Assembly: GCF_900107215.1 (NCBI RefSeq)
Contig: NZ_FNPD01000005.1
Span: forward strand, 62,001 to 126,000
DNA: 64,000 nt
Reading direction: 5' to 3'
Source: Acetomicrobium thermoterrenum DSM 13490
GTDB lineage: Bacteria; Synergistota; Synergistia; Synergistales; Acetomicrobiaceae
Shown: in pieces, positions 5,763 to 59,214 of the stretch
Layout of the letters: every line of letters begins with the position of its first letter
Numbering within the stretch: position 1 is the first letter of the stretch
Made by a program: the position numbers and the translations under genes
The notes under the pieces: model-generated
What the model was told of the DNA's origin: nothing
Database searches by the model: none
Seen by the model: only the letters and a program-made list of their open reading frames with translations

Positions 5763-6908
5763 TCATTTTGCTCTCATCGTATTAGCGTAAATACATGAAA
5801 GTTTTTGCACAGCACTATCAGTGGAATAACCATGTTCCCTTATTTTTTTATGTGCCTCATCTTTGCTGGGTCTTCGAATTAATAATAACCGCTTTAGCTG
5901 TTTAACCCATAAGGATATATCATCTTTTAAAGAAAGCGAATAAATTAACCCCAAACCCATGTCTACCTCCTTTTTATTTATAGCTTCTGGGACAAGACAT
6001 GGCAAACAGGCTGCTTGAGCCTCAACTAATACTAATGGTATTCCTTCGTACAAAGATGGAAACAAAAAGATATCTCCTGCAGACAAAATCTCTGGAATAT
6101 CTGATCTCACACCCAGAAAGTGTATATTTGATTCAATACCCTTTTCCACTGCCAAATGAACAATCTCATCCTTTAGAGGCCCATCTCCTACTAAAACTAG
6201 ATGTGCGTTTGAACATTCCTTTAAAAACTCACTAAAAACTTCTATTAAAAACACGTGATTTTTTTGTTTTGAAAATCTTCCTACATGTATTATCAACGGA
6301 ACATCTTTGGGTAGGTCTATTTCTTCTCGTAAAGAATTTTTATCGTTGTATACCTTTTCGAATACTGATAAATCAATCCCATTCGCAACAACCTGCGTTC
6401 GCACATCATTCCAACAATTTGGTCCATACAATGCCTCACATGCTTCTTTCGAACAACCCACAAGATGAGTTGCGTTATATAAGATGGATTTTCTCATGAT
6501 CCATCTATATAAAATTCGCTTCCATGAATTTAATTTACCATCACTTGTATTATGACTATGAGCAATTCTAATTGGTACTTTATTAATTCGCCCTATAAGT
6601 AATGTCACTCCACTGAAATAATAAATATGACTATGGATAACATCGTATTTATTTGATCTTAATAGTTGATTTAGGTTGTTATAATATATTCTAACATCCC
6701 GCCCTCCTTTTTCTGATAAATGATATATACTACCCATTAAAGAAAGAATTTCATCATCATAATCACACTTTTTCATTGTACTAACAGCAAAGTCAAAATG
6801 AAATTTTTCTCTATCAATATTACGGTATACATTCATAATAAGAGTCTCAGCCCCGCCTCTGTTCATGCCTCCAAATATATGCAAAACTTTAATTGGATTG
6901 TAAGACAT
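5763..6908 (-). CDS. GT4-family glycosyltransferase
   Basis: A GT-B glycosyltransferase of 381 residues. The N-terminus has the diagnostic loop FGGMNRGGAETLIMNVYR (residues 12-29), a hallmark of the EpsF/CapJ-like subgroup. The middle contains IIHVGRFSKQKNH, the start of the donor domain, and the donor site is SLYEGIPLVLVEAQAACLP. An AGGAG ribosome site precedes the ATG. It is followed on the same strand by the pyruvyl transferase gene, so these genes form one transcript with the polymerase and flippase upstream. The specific sugar is not predictable. Confidence 0.85.
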   Translation of the reverse strand: MSYNPIKVLHIFGGMNRGGAETLIMNVYRNIDREKFHFDFAVSTMKKCDYDDEILSLMGSIYHLSEKGGRDVRIYYNNLNQLLRSNKYDVIHSHIYYFSGVTLLIGRINKVPIRIAHSHNTSDGKLNSWKRILYRWIMRKSILYNATHLVGCSKEACEALYGPNCWNDVRTQVVANGIDLSVFEKVYNDKNSLREEIDLPKDVPLIIHVGRFSKQKNHVFLIEVFSEFLKECSNAHLVLVGDGPLKDEIVHLAVEKGIESNIHFLGVRSDIPEILSAGDIFLFPSLYEGIPLVLVEAQAACLPCLVPEAINKKEVDMGLGLIYSLSLKDDISLWVKQLKRLLLIRRPSKDEAHKKIREHGYSTDSAVQKLSCIYANTMRAK

Positions 6909-6997
6909 TTTACTCCTCCCATTTTTACATTTTACTGAAGCTTTTTAACCATCACTGACTTTAACGCTGACTGTTATATTAAATACCCGGTAAGGGT

Positions 6998-8536
6998 TTA
7001 CTCTTTCGCTCCTCGTTGACCGTTAGGTTGCTTTACAACCGCAATGTCTCCAAAGGTAGCGTATCTTTTAGATTCTTTGAAGACAACTCGAAAAACTTTA
7101 TCGCATAGAACCATCAATAACAAAGGAAACAAGCTGTACCAAAAAAGCTGACGTACCACAGACATCGATTCACCTCGGGCGATCCAAATAAACAACGAAA
7201 AGAAAGAAGCAACCATCCCTACTTTAGCTGGATGAAAGCGCAACGACTCCCAACGTAGTAATTTTGAAATTAGAAAACCCATTATAAACATTGGCAAAAT
7301 ACTACCAAGCCAACCAAAATTAAGATACCCCTCTGCAAAAATGGAATAACCATAACCACCGCCCATGGCGGCAAATGTAGGATTTACAGTTTGGACCAAC
7401 CAGTCTGCCGCTTTGGCAGATAATGCCGGATGAACATCCCAAAAAAAATTCGGTATCAGAGTGGTCATTGCCCAAAAATATGTTCCACCATATGCAAAGG
7501 GTCGTGCTGTAGGAACTAGCTCCAATGTATATACCAATGTCTGAAGTGAACCGCCCATTTCTTTAATGGAAGCAACAAGGGGATTATCAACGTAACCTAA
7601 AGCTGTAATCCAAATACCAAAATTTAGTCTTTCGGCCCCTGAAATGTTACGCAAAGCGAATATCAGAGGAAATATTGTTAATGCACATACACCAAGAATA
7701 AAAACTAAACCAACAGGAATCTTCTTTATGGACCGATGCCATACCCACAATGTTACTATTGTATCCATCGCAAAATAACCTCTTCGCCCAATGAACAAAT
7801 TGGCTAAAATTTCACTTAATAGGATAACAATTGCCAGCCATCGCAATACCCTGCTGTCGCGACTTGTTGCCAATAAGAACAAAGCGGCCGGAACTAAAAA
7901 GGCACCTAGTACTCTATCAACTGCGGCAAAGCCCGTCGGTTTATCAACTTGATAAATTGCGAAATAGCCACCACGGATGATAATTTGCAATATGTGATAA
8001 TACTTATAGAACCAAAATGGGAGGGCTAAAGCTATCAGCAAGATACTTACAAATCTTACACTTGAGTATGTTAAATGTATGTAGCCAATACGTTCTCGTT
8101 TTCGCGGAGAATTAACATAACCGACTAATGCACCTAAATGTAGCCATGAAAACGAAACCAGAACAAAATAAAGACTTTGAATGATGCTAACATCGGAAAA
8201 ACGATTATCAAGGATGCCTTCATCCAGTAAGCCAAAAAGATGTAACACACAATGCGAAGCATTAAAGGTAAAGCAAGCAAGAATAAATATTATATACAAG
8301 TTCAAGTAATCTTGTTGAGAACACCATCTCCACGATAGTATGATCCATACAAATTGAAATATTAAGAGACTAGAAATAACAACATTGCCGTTAGCAAATG
8401 AGCTTACCCAAGATTTATCCATTACGTAAAAAAGGCCCAAGGATAACATAGTAACTTGAGTTAATTGAAGACATATAATAATAAATTTAAAAAAGGATTC
8501 TCTTGAAAACATGGGCTTAGGGTTATCCTGTACCAT
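6998..8536 (-). CDS. Wzy-like oligosaccharide repeat-unit polymerase
   Basis: A polytopic inner-membrane protein of 512 residues with roughly a dozen hydrophobic segments and no soluble domain. The segment YVDNPLVASIKEMGG and the large hydrophilic loop around residues 330-390, including FAYGGTYFWAMTTLIPN, match the O-antigen polymerase (O-antigen_pol) family. These enzymes join repeat units on the periplasmic side of the membrane. It lies between the flippase gene and the glycosyltransferases, as expected for a Wzx/Wzy-dependent pathway. Wzy proteins diverge strongly, so the call rests on topology, loop pattern and position. Confidence 0.75.
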   Translation of the reverse strand: MVQDNPKPMFSRESFFKFIIICLQLTQVTMLSLGLFYVMDKSWVSSFANGNVVISSLLIFQFVWIILSWRWCSQQDYLNLYIIFILACFTFNASHCVLHLFGLLDEGILDNRFSDVSIIQSLYFVLVSFSWLHLGALVGYVNSPRKRERIGYIHLTYSSVRFVSILLIALALPFWFYKYYHILQIIIRGGYFAIYQVDKPTGFAAVDRVLGAFLVPAALFLLATSRDSRVLRWLAIVILLSEILANLFIGRRGYFAMDTIVTLWVWHRSIKKIPVGLVFILGVCALTIFPLIFALRNISGAERLNFGIWITALGYVDNPLVASIKEMGGSLQTLVYTLELVPTARPFAYGGTYFWAMTTLIPNFFWDVHPALSAKAADWLVQTVNPTFAAMGGGYGYSIFAEGYLNFGWLGSILPMFIMGFLISKLLRWESLRFHPAKVGMVASFFSLFIWIARGESMSVVRQLFWYSLFPLLLMVLCDKVFRVVFKESKRYATFGDIAVVKQPNGQRGAKE

Positions 8537-10940: not shown

Positions 10941-11243
10941 ATGGAGTTTGAATTTTTGAGCGAGGTCATCGGTGATTTGGTGAGGCGAAGGCGAAAGGAG
11001 CTTAACCTTGCCCAGGCCGATGTATGTCGCTATGCTCATATTTCTCAGGGCCAGCTTTCCCGTATCGAAAACGGGCTTCGCATTCCTTCTCTTTCTCTTA
11101 TGTTTAGGTTGTGCCGCGTGTTGAACTGTGACATAAGCATCAGCGACATATTCGATAAGTTTTCATCCAAAGATAAGAACTCAAAAAATAAGAAGAAGGG
11201 GGATGACGAAAAGAAGAAAGGCAAGGAGGGCGATAAGTCCTAA
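10941..11243 (+). CDS. XRE-family helix-turn-helix regulator
   Basis: A 100-residue DNA-binding protein with one helix-turn-helix of the lambda Cro/C1 type at residues 10-65 (KELNLAQADVCRYAHISQGQ, then RIENGLRIPSLSLMFRL). The tail from residue 75 is extremely rich in lysine and aspartate/glutamate (KDKNSKNKKKGDDEKKKGKE) and probably disordered. The ATG at 10941 is chosen over an earlier in-frame start because AAAGGAGGTG lies just ahead of it. It stands at the head of a phage-derived module and is closed by a strong terminator at 11275-11309, so it is its own transcription unit and may act as the module repressor. Confidence 0.85.
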   Translation: MEFEFLSEVIGDLVRRRRKELNLAQADVCRYAHISQGQLSRIENGLRIPSLSLMFRLCRVLNCDISISDIFDKFSSKDKNSKNKKKGDDEKKKGKEGDKS

Positions 11244-11274
11244 AGAATGATCCGGGCTTGGCCCGGCGGTTTTA

Positions 11275-11309
11275 GGTAGCGTGAGGTACATCTCACGCTA
11301 CCTTTTTTT
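11275..11309 (+). terminator. Rho-independent terminator
   Basis: Perfect 11-bp stem GGTAGCGTGAG / CTCACGCTACC with a six-base loop, followed immediately by seven T. It ends the XRE regulator transcript. Confidence 0.93.
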
Positions 11310-11351
11310 AACTATTTACACGTTAAAACACATTATAGGGAGGTTTTACAA

Positions 11352-12287
11352 ATGAGCTCATCTAAAAATGGTGCTTTTGTGATGGTAGACTTCTGTGTAA
11401 TCACCGATAAAAATCTAGACGTCTTTGACAAGATGACATACGTGGCGCTTTGCAAATTCGCCGACAGAGAGGGAAAGTGCTTCCCCAGCCAAAACACCCT
11501 CGCCGCCCTGGTGGGATGCGGCCGCTCCCGCCTTCGCAAATCGCTGGACAACCTAAAAGGGTTAAATTACCTGAGGGTGGACAGCAGGGTGCTCGACGGC
11601 AAACAGCGAAGCAATCTATACACCCTCCTGCCGCGAGAAAACCGCACCCGGGTTTCCTCAAGCGCAGAGGGGGGTCTCCAAAAAACCCACCCCGGGTCGC
11701 AGGACGGCCACATAACTATATCCAATATAACTAGATCTAAAGAACAAGATTCAGGGGAACTTCCGCAGTGCGATGCAGTCGCAGAAAAACCCCAGGACTC
11801 CCGGAAACCTGCCCTTTATCCGGGAAGAGCCAGCGAACCCCCTTCACCTTCTTTTTATAAAAATCAAAATACGCCCCCCTTAGAGCGGGAGATGAAGCAT
11901 CCTCCCTATGAAGAAGTGGTCGAGTCCTTTAAGCGGCACTTTCCCGACCAAAATCCTCCCACACTAGACGAAGCAAACTGTATGTGGATGAGGGTTGCCG
12001 CCTTAGTGCACGACGAGCTTTATACCGCCCAGGGGTGGGACGACTACTTCGACGGCATCGCCAAAAGCCCCTTTTTGTCGGGGGATAACGACGTCAACTG
12101 GAGGCCGGGCGTCTTCTGGATATTGCTTACAAAAAACATCCGAAAGGTAAAGGAAGGCTTCTTTGAAAGGGGCGGAACCTGGGAACAGATCGTGGAACAA
12201 AGAATGAAGATCGCAGACTTGACGGAGGAAGATCAGAAATACGTTCGTGATCTGATTTTCAATATAAAATCGAGGGAGGCGGCCTAG
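11352..12287 (+). CDS. Phage-type replication initiator / replisome organizer with N-terminal HTH
   Basis: A 311-residue protein. Residues 15-90 form a helix-turn-helix of the HTH_36 kind (MTYVALCKFADREGKCFPSQ, then TLAALVGCGRSRLRKSLDNL) seen in phage and plasmid replication initiators. Residues 100-185 are a low-complexity proline/serine-rich linker. Residues 190-290 contain a second conserved domain with the WRPGVFWILLTKNIRKVKEG segment found at the C-terminus of replisome organizers. An AGGG-AGG ribosome site precedes the ATG. The next gene starts three bases after its stop, and the pair looks like the origin-opening and helicase-loading functions of a phage. Confidence 0.72.
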   Translation: MSSSKNGAFVMVDFCVITDKNLDVFDKMTYVALCKFADREGKCFPSQNTLAALVGCGRSRLRKSLDNLKGLNYLRVDSRVLDGKQRSNLYTLLPRENRTRVSSSAEGGLQKTHPGSQDGHITISNITRSKEQDSGELPQCDAVAEKPQDSRKPALYPGRASEPPSPSFYKNQNTPPLEREMKHPPYEEVVESFKRHFPDQNPPTLDEANCMWMRVAALVHDELYTAQGWDDYFDGIAKSPFLSGDNDVNWRPGVFWILLTKNIRKVKEGFFERGGTWEQIVEQRMKIADLTEEDQKYVRDLIFNIKSREAA

Positions 12288-12289
12288 CC

Positions 12290-12850
12290 ATGGAAAGCAG
12301 GGATTTCGAGGGCTTTTTCAGCTTACTTAAGGAGGTTGCCGAGCTTTACGGGACCAGGTTGTCAAAAAATCGGGCGGAGCTTTTCTTCGAGGCCTGCAGG
12401 GAATTATCCCTTGAAAGCTTTGCCGAGGGCGTCAGAAGGCACATTCGCTGGGGGAGCTTTTTCCCCGCTCCTGCCGAGGTGTTCAAGGCCCTCTACGGCA
12501 CGGATGAAGATCAGGCGACGATGGCCTGGTGCGACGTTTTGGAGGCCATCCGAAGGACGGGCGCCGAGGGACCTGTTAAATTCGCCGACTACCGCATCCA
12601 CTACGCCATCGAGCGGATGGGCGGATGGGCGCACGTCGCCTGGGCCGTCGGAGAAAAGAAGAGATGGCCGATGAAGGATTTTATCTTTTGGTATGTCTTT
12701 GCCCTCAAGATAAACGTCGACGCCTGCGACGTAAAGCCCTATTTAATGGGAAACAGAGGGCTGCCCTACAAGGCCGGGCCCGAGGACATAGCAAGGATGA
12801 CGCTCGAGGTGCCGGCAGGGCAGGCGCGGGGGCTTCGCAGGGTCCTTTAG
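12290..12850 (+). CDS. DUF6475-like phage replication protein
   Basis: A 186-residue protein that resembles DUF6475 proteins next to replication initiators in phages. Visible family features are the opening FEGFFSLLKEVAELYGTRLS, the motif FFPAPAEVFKAL around residues 56-67, an alanine/tryptophan segment MAWCDVLEAIRRTG and the closing YAIERMGGWAHVAWA. The layout parallels lambda P-like helicase loaders, but no direct loader motif is visible, so the role is inferred from position. It begins three bases after the initiator gene stop, indicating translational coupling. Confidence 0.6.
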   Translation: MESRDFEGFFSLLKEVAELYGTRLSKNRAELFFEACRELSLESFAEGVRRHIRWGSFFPAPAEVFKALYGTDEDQATMAWCDVLEAIRRTGAEGPVKFADYRIHYAIERMGGWAHVAWAVGEKKRWPMKDFIFWYVFALKINVDACDVKPYLMGNRGLPYKAGPEDIARMTLEVPAGQARGLRRVL

Positions 12851-13015
12851 GTTTCGCCTGTACGTCGGCGGGTCGAATATGTTGTGTGGCTTTTGACTGC
12901 TCCGTTGGAGCGATGTGTTTGATCTTGCAGGAAGGCTTTACTGTTTTCAGGCGTTCAGGCGCTTCGGCGACTTAGATGGCCTAAAAAATTTATAATATTC
13001 CTTTAGCTATGCGTA

Positions 13016-13044
13016 TTGTGAAATTGTAGGGCCTACTTTATAGT
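13016..13044 (+). promoter_or_regulatory. Probable sigma-70 promoter of the DUF1659-DUF2922-YvrJ unit
   Basis: TTGTGA (13016-13021) and TATAGT (13039-13044) are separated by exactly 17 bases. The start codon of the DUF1659 gene follows about 33 bases downstream with an AAAGGAGG ribosome site. The spacer contains a near-palindrome GTAGGGCCTAC that could be an operator. The rest of the 226-base gap after the DUF6475 gene shows no gene. Confidence 0.6.
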
Positions 13045-13076
13045 AGATACATCACGAAAAGAAAGGAGGAAAAGAT

Positions 13077-13292
13077 ATGGCAGCTTATCAACCGATAGCA
13101 AGCCGTCTGACCCTGAGGCTTCAGGTAGGAGCAGACGAATGGGGAAAGCCCAAGCTAAAGAGCAAATCCATCGCAGGCGTTGATTACTCCGCCGACGCTA
13201 CCGACGTGTTGACGGTGGCGCAGGCGATCGCCGGGCTTTTGCCCTACAATCTGGTCGAAGCGCAGAAGGTAGATACCGATAGGGTCGGTTAG
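13077..13292 (+). CDS. DUF1659 small protein
   Basis: A 71-residue protein that fits DUF1659: SRLTLRLQVGADEWGKPKLK followed by SIAGVDYSADATDVLTVAQA. The predicted form is two beta strands and a helix, with no membrane segment. DUF1659 has no established function. In Firmicutes and some Synergistota it is regularly followed by DUF2922 and a YvrJ peptide, as it is here at 13329 and 13797. An AAAGGAGG ribosome site lies seven bases before the ATG. Confidence 0.8.
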   Translation: MAAYQPIASRLTLRLQVGADEWGKPKLKSKSIAGVDYSADATDVLTVAQAIAGLLPYNLVEAQKVDTDRVG

Positions 13293-13328
13293 GCAATTTA
13301 ACAAATTATGACGAAAAGGAGGTGATAC

Positions 13329-13544
13329 ATGTTGGAGCCGAAAATGACCAGAAGGCTTAGGATGACCTTTGAGACGGAAGATGGCCCGTGGACTTTGTCT
13401 TTGTCCGACGTAAAAGAAGGACTGCTTCCTGAGGAAGTGGAAACGGTCATGCAGACAATAGTTGACAACAGCATATTCGGCATTCCCCCAACGGGGATCG
13501 TCAAGGCCGAGCTCGTAGAGACCGACACCACTCAGCTGGTGTAA
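13329..13544 (+). CDS. DUF2922 small protein
   Basis: A 71-residue protein fitting DUF2922: RRLRMTFETEDGPWTLSLSD, then EEVETVMQTIVDNSIF and a closing VKAELVETDTTQLV. The pattern is strand, strand, helix, strand. Like DUF1659 it is of unknown function. The start gives MLEPKMTRR after an AAAAGGAGGTGA site. The gene follows DUF1659 by 36 bases and is clearly in the same transcript, ended or attenuated by the hairpin at 13553-13586. Confidence 0.8.
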   Translation: MLEPKMTRRLRMTFETEDGPWTLSLSDVKEGLLPEEVETVMQTIVDNSIFGIPPTGIVKAELVETDTTQLV

Positions 13545-13552
13545 ATATAGAT

Positions 13553-13586
13553 GTCTAAAGGCTGCCCCTTGAGGCGGCCTTTAGAC
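13553..13586 (+). terminator. Strong hairpin after DUF2922
   Basis: A 14-bp stem (GTCTAAAGGCTGCC with GGCGGCCTTTAGAC, one G-T wobble) with a six-base loop. There is no immediate T-tract, the next being GCTTTTTAG about 16 bases later. It may be an attenuator or an mRNA-stabilising end, not a full terminator. The 210 bases from here to the YvrJ gene hold only a possible 20-codon ORF (13716-13778, MEKVKRVALKIPEGALAFLI). Confidence 0.55.
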
Positions 13587-13796
13587 GGAAAGATTAGGGG
13601 GCTTTTTAGGCTGACTTTTAAGGTATAAGTCAAAGCCCCAGGGGTTTGCCGGCAAAGTGCGCTGCGTTGCAGTTTGCGGGCGGGTCTTTGCGGGCGTGCA
13701 GCTTGTGAGGCAGACATGGAAAAAGTCAAAAGGGTTGCTTTAAAGATACCCGAAGGGGCTTTAGCTTTTTTAATTTAAGCGAAGGGAGGGAAATTT

Positions 13797-13949
13797 TTGG
13801 AGGAATTTCTGACGTCCACTCTTCAGACGACCTTTTCCATCGCGGTGGCAGCATACCTGCTGATCCGCATGGAAAAGCGACTCGACGAGCTGGCAATAGC
13901 GATAAACAACCTCGAAAAGGGCGTGGCAAAATACTTCGGCGAGGTGTAA
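13797..13949 (+). CDS. YvrJ-family small membrane peptide
   Basis: A 50-residue peptide starting at TTG with a GGGAGGG ribosome site six bases upstream. It reads LEEFLTSTLQTTFSIAVAAY, then LLIRMEKRLDELAIAINNLE and a short tail ending YFGEV. It has one N-terminal hydrophobic helix of about 20 residues and an amphipathic charged helix, the layout of the YvrJ family. YvrJ peptides accompany DUF2922/DUF1659 genes and their function is unknown. The hydrophobic-helix plus charged-tail form also resembles small phage holins, and a muramidase gene follows 125 bases downstream, which makes a holin-like role an attractive inference. Confidence 0.75.
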   Translation: MEEFLTSTLQTTFSIAVAAYLLIRMEKRLDELAIAINNLEKGVAKYFGEV

Positions 13950-14074
13950 TTGCAGGGCTAATTTGAAATTTTGCAGACTTTCAAGGCTTTTGCAAGGTTT
14001 TTGACCGTAACTAAAAATACGCAAGCGCTGATCACGGCGCATAAATATAGATTAATATAACGAAAGGAGATCTC

Positions 14075-14611
14075 ATGAGAGAAAAGGTTGCAGATTATAT
14101 TTTGAAGGTAGAAGGAGGGTTCGTAGACAACCCGAAAGACCCCGGCGGTAGGACAAACTTCGGCATCACTGCCGCCACCCTGACCTCGGCACGAGCGAGG
14201 TTAAAAGACGCCAGGCTTCCCGAGGACGTAATAAACCTTACAAAAGAACAAGCGCTTGAGATATACGAAAAATTTTACTGGAAACCCGCAGGATGCGACC
14301 ACATCCCCCGCCCCGTCGATCTAGCCGTATTTGACGGGTGCGTCAACTGCGGAGTCAGGCAGGGCGTGAAGTTCCTGCAGGAGGCTCTTAATATGCTGGG
14401 CGAAAACCTGGCCGTCGACGGCATCTTTGGTCAAAAGACCATGCAGGCTGCCTGGGAGCATGCGCTGCCTAAGACCAAAATTTTATCCGCCCTGCTTTGG
14501 CGACGCACGAAATACTACAACGACATCGTCGCCCGAAACCCCGACAGGCGGGTCTTCCTGCACGGCTGGCTCAACCGCCTAGCCCGGCTTTGGAGCTGCG
14601 CTGTGGGATGA
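14075..14611 (+). CDS. GH108 N-acetylmuramidase (phage-type endolysin)
   Basis: A 178-residue lysozyme that hydrolyses the MurNAc-GlcNAc bond of peptidoglycan. Residues 5-90 are the glycosyl hydrolase 108 domain with the catalytic glutamate in VEGGFVDNPKDPGGRTNFGI. Residues 95-175 are the paired PG_binding_3 domain (FLQEALNMLGENLAVDGIFG and LLWRRTKYYNDIVARNP). There is no signal peptide, as in phage endolysins that depend on a holin and in TtsA-type muramidases. It lies downstream of the DUF1659/DUF2922/YvrJ trio. An AAAGGAG ribosome site precedes the ATG. Confidence 0.9.
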   Translation: MREKVADYILKVEGGFVDNPKDPGGRTNFGITAATLTSARARLKDARLPEDVINLTKEQALEIYEKFYWKPAGCDHIPRPVDLAVFDGCVNCGVRQGVKFLQEALNMLGENLAVDGIFGQKTMQAAWEHALPKTKILSALLWRRTKYYNDIVARNPDRRVFLHGWLNRLARLWSCAVG

Positions 14612-14713: not shown

Positions 14714-14923
14714 GCGGATCGGATCGTCGCTGGTCCTAAAATATGTTTTGGAAAACCGGTTATAGAGGGCACTAGAATCCCGATTCATCTGGTTTTGGAA
14801 CTTTTGGGCGATGGAGTTACACCAGATGAAATTATAAAAAATTATTATCCCTGTTTGACCAAGGAGGACATCCTAGCCTGTATCCGTTTTGCTAACTCCT
14901 TTATAATGATAGACCCTTGCTAA
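14714..14923 (+). pseudogene. DUF433 (VapB45-type antitoxin) remnant without start codon
   Basis: An open frame of 69 codons following a TGA reads DRIVAGPKICFGKPVIEGTR, IPIHLVLELLGDGVTPDEII and KNYYPCLTKEDILACIRFA. This is nearly a whole DUF433 domain, the antitoxin usually paired with a DUF5615 PIN-like toxin. No start codon exists before the domain because the hairpin repeat at 14664-14706 replaces it. The last residues (NSFIMIDPC) are encoded by a sequence matching the other arm of that repeat. No toxin gene follows, so the pair is dead. Confidence 0.75.
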
Positions 14924-17548: not shown

Positions 17549-18007
17549 TCATCTTCTTCCTTCCTTAATATAGGGTACACCAAGATATTCGGGAACCCTG
17601 AATTCCTTTCTCGATATCGTCGCTAATATAGTTAGGATGTATGGTATGGCGATTATAAATTCGTTTGGGATGGCTTTGAAGCCCCATGTCTGTATTACGA
17701 TAGAAAAAGCGTCGGCTAAGCTGAAGATCAGCCCGCCGATGGCATCGCCTATCGGGTTCCAGTTTCCAAGGAAACATATCGCAAAGGCGATCCATCCCCT
17801 ACCGCCAATTATATCCCCAGTAAATAATCCTAAAAACCCTATCGAGTAAAATGCGCCAGCCAAGCCACATAGAATGCTGGAACACAACACTGCCTTAAAC
17901 CTAACGGAATCAACGTTTATGCCAGCTGCGTCCACAGCCTCGGGATTAGCGCCCGTCGAGCGAATCACCAACCCTGTTTTGGTTTTAAATAAAAGCCAAT
18001 ATATTGC
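17549..18007 (-). pseudogene. ABC-transporter permease fragment (BPD_transp_2, sugar/nucleoside type)
   Basis: The minus strand encodes about 150 C-terminal residues of a RbsC/YufQ-like permease: KTKTGLVIRSTGANPEAVDA, then GGRGWIAFAICFLGNWNPIG and an end at KEFRVPEYLGVPYIKEGRR. Homologues are about 300-350 residues with 8-10 helices, so the N-terminal half is missing. The permease-like reading starts AIYWLLFK at about 18007, and the bases immediately upstream are a repeat end (18008-18031). It was therefore cut exactly at the repeat. The best translation start left is a TTG at 17971, so it is unlikely to be functional. Confidence 0.8.
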
Positions 18008-20306: not shown

Positions 20307-21200
20307 TCAGCCTTTCTGTTCCTCCAACTTATTTAGAAAGGCCATTACATACGAAAGAAATTTGCTGAAATCGTCCAATTCATAGTGGATTGTACGGTAA
20401 ACTAGCTTGCTATCAACTTCCCAATATACATGGACGATGATGTTGCGCATTGCGCATATACGAGCCAGTTTGTCGGCAAAACCTTTAGGGATGACATTTA
20501 GCGAGGCAAGTGTTTTGAAGATATCTGCATAGGTCTTTGGCGCCTTAAAATTGCCCTTAAACTGATGCAATGAAAGCAAACGATTGCCTATGTTTATACA
20601 CGTCTCGATTGCGATTTGTAAGTAACGTTCCGTCGCTGCCTGTAAAGTTTCATCTTTTAGATATTCCTCTATAGGCTTTTGTCGAATCTTTTCAAGGCGA
20701 CTTATGTATTCCTGTAACAATTCAATTTGGTTCATTAATTTAATATCCATTGAAGGCTCCTCCGAATCACCTATGAGTCTCTTGTAATACTCCCGCAGAA
20801 TCGGATAAAAGTCTAGGTAAGCGCCCAAAACCTTAGCCTGAAAATCTACCAAGGCTTGAGGATCGTAAAGGACCAGGATGACTTTATCTTCTATTGCGCT
20901 AAATTGCAGGGTTAACGGTGCAACACTTAGATTTACTAAGTCAAAGTCATCCGTGTGCATCAGCCGAGAGAGATCGAGGTAAAGATTTGAATGAATCTTA
21001 AACATTTCCCATTCGCTTAAACCTTCACGGTACAAAACTGCCAGGTCGATATCGCTCAAAGGCGTGACCTCATCTCGACTCGCAGAGCCGAACAAAAGCA
21101 GGGCTGCAACCTCTTTCCTGTAGGGCATTAGCGCATCCGGGGCCCTTTGAAGCTGTTTTAATATGAAATCAAAATCAAGCGGTCTTTCGCTCAAGCGCAT
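20307..21200 (-). CDS. Fused MntA-HepT toxin-antitoxin protein
   Basis: A 297-residue single polypeptide. Residues 1-135 are a minimal nucleotidyltransferase with LLFGSASRDEVTPLSDIDLA, so the GS-x10-DxD metal site is intact. Residues 145-297 are a HepT/HEPN helical bundle ending in CAMRNIIVHVYWEVD, an exact R-x4-H-x-Y ribonuclease signature. In type VII systems the separate MntA enzyme adds AMP to the tyrosine of HepT and silences it. Here both modules with all key residues are in one chain, so modification would be intramolecular or between dimer partners. No separate partner gene is adjacent. Domain calls are firm; the mechanism is transferred from the two-gene systems. Confidence 0.85.
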   Translation of the reverse strand: MRLSERPLDFDFILKQLQRAPDALMPYRKEVAALLLFGSASRDEVTPLSDIDLAVLYREGLSEWEMFKIHSNLYLDLSRLMHTDDFDLVNLSVAPLTLQFSAIEDKVILVLYDPQALVDFQAKVLGAYLDFYPILREYYKRLIGDSEEPSMDIKLMNQIELLQEYISRLEKIRQKPIEEYLKDETLQAATERYLQIAIETCINIGNRLLSLHQFKGNFKAPKTYADIFKTLASLNVIPKGFADKLARICAMRNIIVHVYWEVDSKLVYRTIHYELDDFSKFLSYVMAFLNKLEEQKG

Positions 21201-57999: not shown

Positions 58000-59214
58000 T
58001 TATTTCAAGACAGCCAGAAGCAGCAAGGGATTTTCGAGCAGCTCTTTTACGCGCCTGATAAACATGGCCCCTTGGGCGCCGTCGACGATCCTGTGGTCGA
58101 AGGTCAAAGAAAGCGTCATCATGGGCTTTACGATTATTTGGCCATCGCAAACGCAAGGCCTGTCTTTCATCTCTCCAACCCCTAAAATGGCGCACTGCGG
58201 AGGATTGATGATGGGAGTAAAGTCTCTAACGCCAAACATTCCGAGGTTAGTGACAGTAAAGGTGCCCCCGGTTACGTCGTCTATAGCAAGTTCGCCTTTG
58301 CGGGCCTTTTCGATCAGGGCATCACCGTCAGAGGCAATTTCGTACAAGTTCTTGCCGGCAACGTCCTTCACCACGGGAACGAGTAACGCCTCCTCCGTCG
58401 CCACGGCAAGGCCGATGTTGATCTCGTCGTAGAGAACTACCTCGTTGCCTTCCAAGTAGGAATTGAGCATCGGCTGTTCTTTCAATGCGACGGCGCAGGC
58501 TTTCATTAATATATAATTGTAAGAGAGGTTAAGCCCCTTTTCCTTAAAAGAGGATTTCAGGTCTTCCCGCAGTTTCTTTAACAAAGTGCAATCTACGTCG
58601 GCATTTAATGTAACCATTGGCGAGTTCTGCCAGCTCGTGGACATCCTCTCGGCTATTACCTGCCTGACATCGGATAGGGCGATCCTTTTAAGCTGAGCTG
58701 CCTCAACTACTGGCTTTGCCCTTTCGGCTTTTTGTCTTTCGATGAAGTCAAGCACGTCTTTTTCTACTATCCTCCCACCCGGACCCGTGCCGGTAACCAA
58801 GGCTAAATCGATGCCGTGTTCCTTGGCTATCTTTTTTGCGATGGGCGTGGCCTTGATTAAAACCTCTTCGCCTGCCGGTTTAGCAGCCACGGGGGCGGGC
58901 TTGGCTTCCGCTTGAGCGGGCTTTTCAGCTGCAGGAGCCGAAGGAGCTTCCTTTAAAAGCTCGCTTATATCTTCGTCTGGGGCTGCTATTATACAAAGCG
59001 GCGTACCGATGGGCACCTTAGTCCCCGGTTGCATTAAGATCTTCCTCAGCACCCCGCTTTCGGGGGCTTCGACCTTATAGGTGATCTTTTCCGTGGAGAC
59101 CTCCAGGACCACCTCTCCCTTTTCGACCCTATCTCCTTCCTTTTTATGCCATTTGGCCACCGAGCCGGATGTCATGGTAAGGCCAAGCTTGGGCATTGTG
59201 ATGACTGTTGCCAT
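58000..59214 (-). CDS. acoC: Dihydrolipoamide acetyltransferase (E2) of an acetoin-type dehydrogenase complex
   Basis: A 404-residue E2 core protein. Residues 1-78 are one lipoyl domain (ITMPKLGLTMTSGSVAKWHK) with the lipoylated lysine at K43 in VSTEKITYKV. Residues 120-160 are the peripheral-subunit-binding domain (TPIAKKIAKEHGIDLALVTG). The catalytic domain ends with LSLTFDHRIVDGAQGAMFIR. ATG at 59214 follows a GGGAGGTG site; the longer frame adds residues lacking similarity. It transfers the acyl group from E1 to CoA. No E3 gene is in the window, so it must be encoded elsewhere or beyond lipA. Confidence 0.92.
   Translation of the reverse strand: MATVITMPKLGLTMTSGSVAKWHKKEGDRVEKGEVVLEVSTEKITYKVEAPESGVLRKILMQPGTKVPIGTPLCIIAAPDEDISELLKEAPSAPAAEKPAQAEAKPAPVAAKPAGEEVLIKATPIAKKIAKEHGIDLALVTGTGPGGRIVEKDVLDFIERQKAERAKPVVEAAQLKRIALSDVRQVIAERMSTSWQNSPMVTLNADVDCTLLKKLREDLKSSFKEKGLNLSYNYILMKACAVALKEQPMLNSYLEGNEVVLYDEINIGLAVATEEALLVPVVKDVAGKNLYEIASDGDALIEKARKGELAIDDVTGGTFTVTNLGMFGVRDFTPIINPPQCAILGVGEMKDRPCVCDGQIIVKPMMTLSLTFDHRIVDGAQGAMFIRRVKELLENPLLLLAVLK

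Follow-up and report, generated by a model that had tools for sequence, protein, structure and literature searches.

A conserved DUF1659-DUF2922-YvrJ-muramidase unit in Acetomicrobium and a possible holin-endolysin function

Gene content and conservation of the locus

The 64,000-nucleotide stretch of Acetomicrobium thermoterrenum DSM 13490 DNA that was analyzed (the window; contig NZ_FNPD01000005.1, 62001 to 126000) contains four successive genes, encoding a DUF1659 protein, a DUF2922 protein, a YvrJ peptide, and a GH108 muramidase, downstream of a phage-like block. The features are as follows:

10941 to 11243, forward strand: HTH_3 regulator of the phage-like block, context (Pfam/PHROG)
11352 to 12287, forward strand: replication-initiation O-like gene, context (phrog_345, 2e-15)
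12290 to 12850, forward strand: phrog_10105 gene, context (phrog_10105, 5e-33)
12995 to 13076, forward strand: DUF1659 promoter region, with element AATATTCCTTTAGCTATGCG, -35, -10, and ribosome-binding site AAAGGAGG
13077 to 13292, forward strand: DUF1659 protein, 71 amino acids (Pfam PF07872, E = 4e-18)
13329 to 13544, forward strand: DUF2922 protein, 71 amino acids (Pfam PF11148, E = 8e-18)
13552 to 13586, forward strand: conserved stem-loop in the DUF2922-YvrJ gap (RNA fold -28.8 kcal/mol, z -3.4)
13797 to 13949, forward strand: YvrJ, 50 amino acids, TTG start, holin candidate (Pfam PF12841, E = 3e-12)
14075 to 14611, forward strand: GH108 muramidase with PG_binding_3 domain (PF05838, E = 2e-27; PF09374, E = 3e-17)

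Open frames were called mechanically. The four products of the unit all scored well above the Pfam gathering cut-offs, and the Pfam and PHROG matches bear out the preliminary description of this DNA, in which the trio stands in order between phage-like replication genes and a GH108 enzyme. Positions 12851 to 13076 are noncoding. YvrJ has a single hydrophobic helix followed by a charged helix, and its amphipathic moment is unremarkable. The muramidase scored 96 bits for PF05838 and 63 bits for the C-terminal PF09374, and it also matched the endolysin family phrog_315 (E = 6e-45). Its catalytic EGG motif is intact (VEGGF...GGRTNFGIT in the translation). A crude hydropathy scan, in keeping with the earlier designation of the enzyme as signal-less, found no N-terminal hydrophobic stretch or signal peptide. 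A muramidase of this type without a signal would depend on a holin, or an equivalent, for access to the wall.

The unit had also been credited with its own promoter. The candidate, TTGTGA-17-TATAGT at 13016 to 13044, matched 9 of 12 consensus positions in a consensus scan, which is attainable by chance alone, yet three species of the genus share it along with the upstream element AATATTCCTTTArCTATGCG, and the DNA farther upstream of the element is not conserved in the same three-species footprint. The claim is retained on the strength of this footprint. The stem at 13552 to 13586 is preserved in three species and has only a short T run; it is a possible terminator or attenuator. With a strong, conserved hairpin after DUF2922, it is not a given that the four genes form one simple transcript, and the hairpin may split the DUF1659-DUF2922 pair from YvrJ-GH108 in transcription.

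The same seven genes are found in the same order in three species of the genus. Between the window and one relative (L031), the trio and the GH108 gene were 87 to 94% identical, with dN/dS of 0.09 to 0.15, whereas the three upstream phage-like genes were 41 to 55% identical, with dN/dS of 0.15 to 0.37. Within the genus, dN/dS was 0.07 to 0.10 for DUF1659, 0.06 to 0.16 for DUF2922, and 0.09 to 0.17 for GH108. The slow change of the trio and GH108 versus the fast change of the upstream genes indicates that the four genes evolve together, apart from the replication block. In the genus, the trio and GH108 are one constrained unit under purifying selection, and we judge the upstream phage-like block (10941 to 12850) to be a separate module.

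None of the ten flanking genes tested (7 to 23 kb) matched a phage structural family, and for these flanks the earlier statement that no structural phage genes remain holds true. The structural, packaging, and integration genes that accompany lysis genes in a prophage were not found beside the unit, and upstream there are only replication-type genes. The remaining flank genes have polysaccharide, toxin-antitoxin-like, and transport functions, and broken genes (DUF433 and permease fragments) lie downstream of the unit. The DUF433 gene (14762 to 14923) has lost its start, and a longer intact form occupies the same place in another relative (L032). A C-terminal fragment of a BPD_transp_2 permease (17549 to 17971) is stranded among polysaccharide genes. 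Nucleotidyltransferase and HepT-like domains are normally the products of two genes of a toxin-antitoxin pair; at 20307 to 21200 in the window they are fused in one gene, which has a 297-amino-acid homolog in L031.

Coupling of YvrJ to wall hydrolases

Genes were counted in the whole genomes of 61 members of the window's order, so that no locus was picked by its neighborhood. The genes above the cut-off were 34 YvrJ, 46 M15_3, and 17 GH108 genes. A same-strand hydrolase lies within 1.5 kb downstream of 29 of the 34 YvrJ genes (25 Peptidase_M15_3 and 4 GH108), where about 0.02 would be expected. This coupling was found in 27 of the 32 YvrJ-bearing genomes, in nine families. Nearly every above-cut-off YvrJ in the order adjoins the DUF1659-DUF2922 pair (the contig is split in G021). 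The pair occurs without YvrJ in 13 of 45 genomes of the order, and in none of these 13 was M15_3 or GH108 found beside the pair. The association between YvrJ and a hydrolase gave a Fisher probability of 1e-7 with kinship ignored, and all of the association counts ignore phylogeny. The whole-genome count replaced a local profile count, for which the seeds had been drawn near the pair, and a random-gene Pfam control, in which the 25 top families were listed, so that the background was limited to one member for each hydrolase family and not shown to be zero.

YvrJ and M15 genes overlap by a few bases in several genomes. The GH108 slot extends beyond the genus, as seen in G034, a member of another family with the order DUF1659-DUF2922-YvrJ-sigma-GH108. 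The preliminary description had held that a trio found mostly without a hydrolase would speak against a lysis function. The order agrees with a lysis function on this point, with a hydrolase in 27 of the 32 genomes, but the majority of the Firmicutes copies lack a hydrolase next to them.

Several loci in the order depart from the common arrangement. First-pass YvrJ calls in L039 and L067 (from G026 and G018) were discarded as profile drift on a repeat, and one genuine YvrJ emerged there from the whole-genome search. Both loci have, at about 6300 to 7960 between DUF2922 and M15, a repetitive proline-rich stretch with long open frames. In G012, about 39 kb separate a YvrJ-M15 pair (C4:19015-19435) from the DUF pair (58877-59080), and the YvrJ that adjoins the latter (58404-58445) is a partial match only. 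GH108 and M15_3 domains are neighbors on the same strand, at a distance from the trio, in G028 (C176:18504-19126) and G035 (C4:239338-239960), possibly as a two-enzyme lysin.

The slot directly before an endolysin is the usual position of a holin. When viral contigs were scanned with clostridial YvrJ, 12 contigs were found. In the phage contig L294, a gap of 12 bases separates the end of a YvrJ gene (65.5 bits, above the cut-off) from the Amidase_2 gene that follows. Weaker YvrJ-like peptides, below the cut-off, stand directly before GH25 or GH24 lysozymes in L299, L304, and L305 (24.6, 15.7, and 15.9 bits), and another weaker one precedes a tail-lysozyme/Amidase_5 gene in L303. A small membrane peptide of this type directly before an endolysin is found both in the order and in phage contigs. 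GH108 is also present in 701 phage records. Firmicutes YvrJ proteins match phrog_4898, annotated as holin (4e-8 to 8e-5); the window YvrJ gave no PHROG match. Membership of YvrJ in BhlA/UviB was rejected, as there was no Pfam BhlA match, with only YvrJ and chance hits at E of 0.1 or better. No spanin was identified in the unit; a diderm lysis system might need one. The downstream hydrolases, the positions before phage endolysins, and the phrog_4898 matches in Firmicutes favor the earlier designation of YvrJ as a holin candidate. These comparisons argue strongly, with corrections, for a putative holin or lysis function.

The DUF1659-DUF2922 pair

Of the 61 relatives, 45 had DUF1659, as did 68 of 291 Clostridia and 167 of 300 Bacilli; most genomes carried a single copy. 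DUF1659 adjoins DUF2922 in 178 of 184 oriented loci, and the median distance between the two is 34.5 bases. The pair is an ancient core found widely among Clostridia and Bacilli. Its two families are remote, paralogous homologs (hhalign P = 9e-5, probability 59%), and AlphaFold2 predicted beta-beta-alpha-beta structures for both DUF1659 (pLDDT 84.5) and DUF2922 (pLDDT 84). The proteins generally have no hydrophobic segment and are neutral to acidic (median pI of 5.8 and 4.9). They very probably form a hetero-oligomer.

No solved relative of DUF1659 or DUF2922 was found in a sequence search of the PDB, and Foldseek searches with both models returned no E below 0.001. The top fold neighbor of DUF1659 was phi29 p6, a DNA-organizing protein (VIA Z 5.1, rmsd 2.8, 60 aligned), and DUF2922 gave Z 4.0 with rmsd 3.5 over 63 against the same protein; Z below 8 is uninformative. 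A p6-like DNA-binding role was dropped because the structural match is weak and the charge is not basic.

The proposal that the whole trio was derived from a phage was not upheld. A protein search of 50,697 phage records found no real relative of the pair, and none of the patterns used for scanning IMG/VR viral contigs picked up a relative of DUF2922 (A2 and A3 varied too much to be scanned). The pair had two weak PHROG family matches. Thus, with the pair absent from the phage searches yet widespread in bacteria, a phage origin of the pair was rejected. In a search of the open-access literature, DUF1659 turned up only as a single mention in one paper (PMC2955703), and no functional experiment on any member of the unit was found there.

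In Firmicutes, the slot is taken by M15_4 (L071, L074, L081, L083, and L085) or Amidase_3 (L072, L082, and L086). In an Aerococcus locus (L078), Phage_holin_Dp1 (E = 1e-29) and a CHAP/CW_7 endolysin replace YvrJ. The slot gene of L105 matches a PHROG holin (7e-6); an XhlA-like reading of its neighbor, L105:5255-5458, was rejected, with no Pfam match and weak PHROG matches only. An adjacent hydrolase of these families was found in only about 14 of 143 Firmicutes loci, and YvrJ is absent from 61 of 187 neighborhoods. Therefore, the pair must fill some role in which it can do with neither of them as a neighbor. Control searches found DUF1659 only in Thermotoga maritima and YvrJ in B. subtilis, so the YvrJ of B. 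subtilis stands without the pair.

Regulatory genes recur near the pair. Among 184 loci, 40 had sigma-70-like genes, 24 had ComK-like genes, and 57 had either. ComK-like proteins beside competence-type genes occur in Clostridia. Cassettes with the order ComK-like-trio-hydrolase-integrase are present on plasmids of Geobacillus, Parageobacillus, and Peribacillus (L071, L072, and L074).

A possible envelope-opening device and its alternatives

The recurrence of unrelated hydrolases after YvrJ suggests a device, domesticated and regulated, that would open the envelope or release protein. On balance we lean toward reading the unit as a domesticated holin-endolysin device with its own promoter, akin to type 10 secretion, in which YvrJ would admit GH108 to the wall. 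YvrJ would insert into the inner membrane via its one hydrophobic helix and, in the manner of small holins of this form, would pass the leaderless GH108 enzyme to the periplasm, where it would cut peptidoglycan. The opening of the envelope could result in protein release, as in type 10 secretion, or in lysis of a subset of cells. The ancient pair of small leaderless proteins would be attached to this device and most likely serves as released cargo or as a controller of the opening, a proposal held less firmly than that of a YvrJ-GH108 device.

GH108 is presumably the family of the coliphage N4 gp61 muramidase. TtsA and ChiP of type 10 secretion are leaderless members of the N4 gp61 family (PMC13284979). 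The type 10 systems (Serratia ChiWXYZ, Salmonella ChiH/ChiP, and TtsA for typhoid toxin) likewise have a small holin and a leaderless hydrolase, along with a dedicated regulator. The gene order and families of the unit fit this pairing of holin and hydrolase, with YvrJ as the putative holin. However, type 10 systems carry known toxin or chitinase cargo, whereas the unit has no known cargo of this kind, no spanin was identified in it, its constant partners are two small proteins, and its role in secretion is putative.

The clostridial UviA/UviB/Bcn5, TpeE, and TcdE loci contain a sigma factor, leaderless cargo, a small holin, and an endolysin (PMC9527704). The likeness lies in a sigma-70 gene beside a candidate cargo that has no leader, a holin-like peptide with one helix, and an endolysin. 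Unlike these loci, the unit has YvrJ rather than BhlA, its cargo candidates are unrelated, and in the window no sigma gene lies beside it. Phage lysis cassettes (L294, L299, L304, and L305) likewise have a YvrJ-like peptide directly before the endolysin, but neither DUF1659 nor DUF2922 was seen in the phage copies, whereas the window copy is chromosomal and kept in the genus. The SigO-RsoA regulon of B. subtilis also joins a YvrJ family peptide to a dedicated sigma factor, yvrJ being transcribed by SigO-RsoA (PMC8103513). A more specific version of the favored reading, which we offer tentatively, is that the pair consists of leaderless proteins that are exported, or that time the opening, via a YvrJ holin and interchangeable hydrolases under sigma-70/ComK-like control.

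If such a device exists, it would represent an unrecognized chromosomal class of holin-dependent release system in Clostridia, Bacilli, and the window's order. It would carry holin-dependent release beyond toxin and chitinase loci into ordinary chromosomes and would provide a first testable function for three families of unknown role. DUF1659 occurs in about a quarter of the sampled Clostridia and more than half of the sampled Bacilli, yet it is barely named in the open-access literature.

The main rival, which we consider unlikely, is that two modules merely stand together. One would be an ancient cytoplasmic pair with an unrelated job, such as that of an architectural protein or of one associated with RNA polymerase; the other would be a lysis pair of YvrJ and a hydrolase, inserted behind it. 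Such independence would fit the neighborhoods and genomes in which the pair lacks YvrJ and the distant YvrJ-M15 pair of G012, but almost every above-cut-off YvrJ in the order adjoins the pair, over nine families. The first rank of phi29 p6 for DUF1659 would suit an architectural job, although the Z score lies in the uninformative range, Foldseek gave no match with E below 0.001, and a typical DNA-binding protein would not share the neutral to acidic pI of the pair.

Less probable still is a module linked to competence or stress that opens the envelope for DNA uptake or release in a differentiated subpopulation. In the local profile count, with seeds from near the pair, ComK-like genes were near the pair 24 times and far from it only once; one ComK-like protein passes the Pfam ComK cut-off (3e-6), and four downstream genes match ComK. 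Clostridia (for example, L096, L213, L219, and L222) have a recurrent order of MetK-sigma70-DUF1659-DUF2922-YvrJ-ComK-like-RecD2-ComF-like, with parts missing in some. In the window's order, however, ComK-like genes were not found close to the pair. The trio may have landed in an old clostridial arrangement of MetK-RecD2-ComF, and the association is with regulators, not with uptake machinery.

A prophage remnant in decay, without any current function, would explain the phage-like replication genes upstream, the frequency of GH108 in phages, and the broken genes downstream, but this reading is disfavored by the selection data and is very improbable, as dN/dS is about 0.1 for the trio and GH108 across three species, the promoter footprint is conserved, and nine families retain the same design, in most cases with a different hydrolase.
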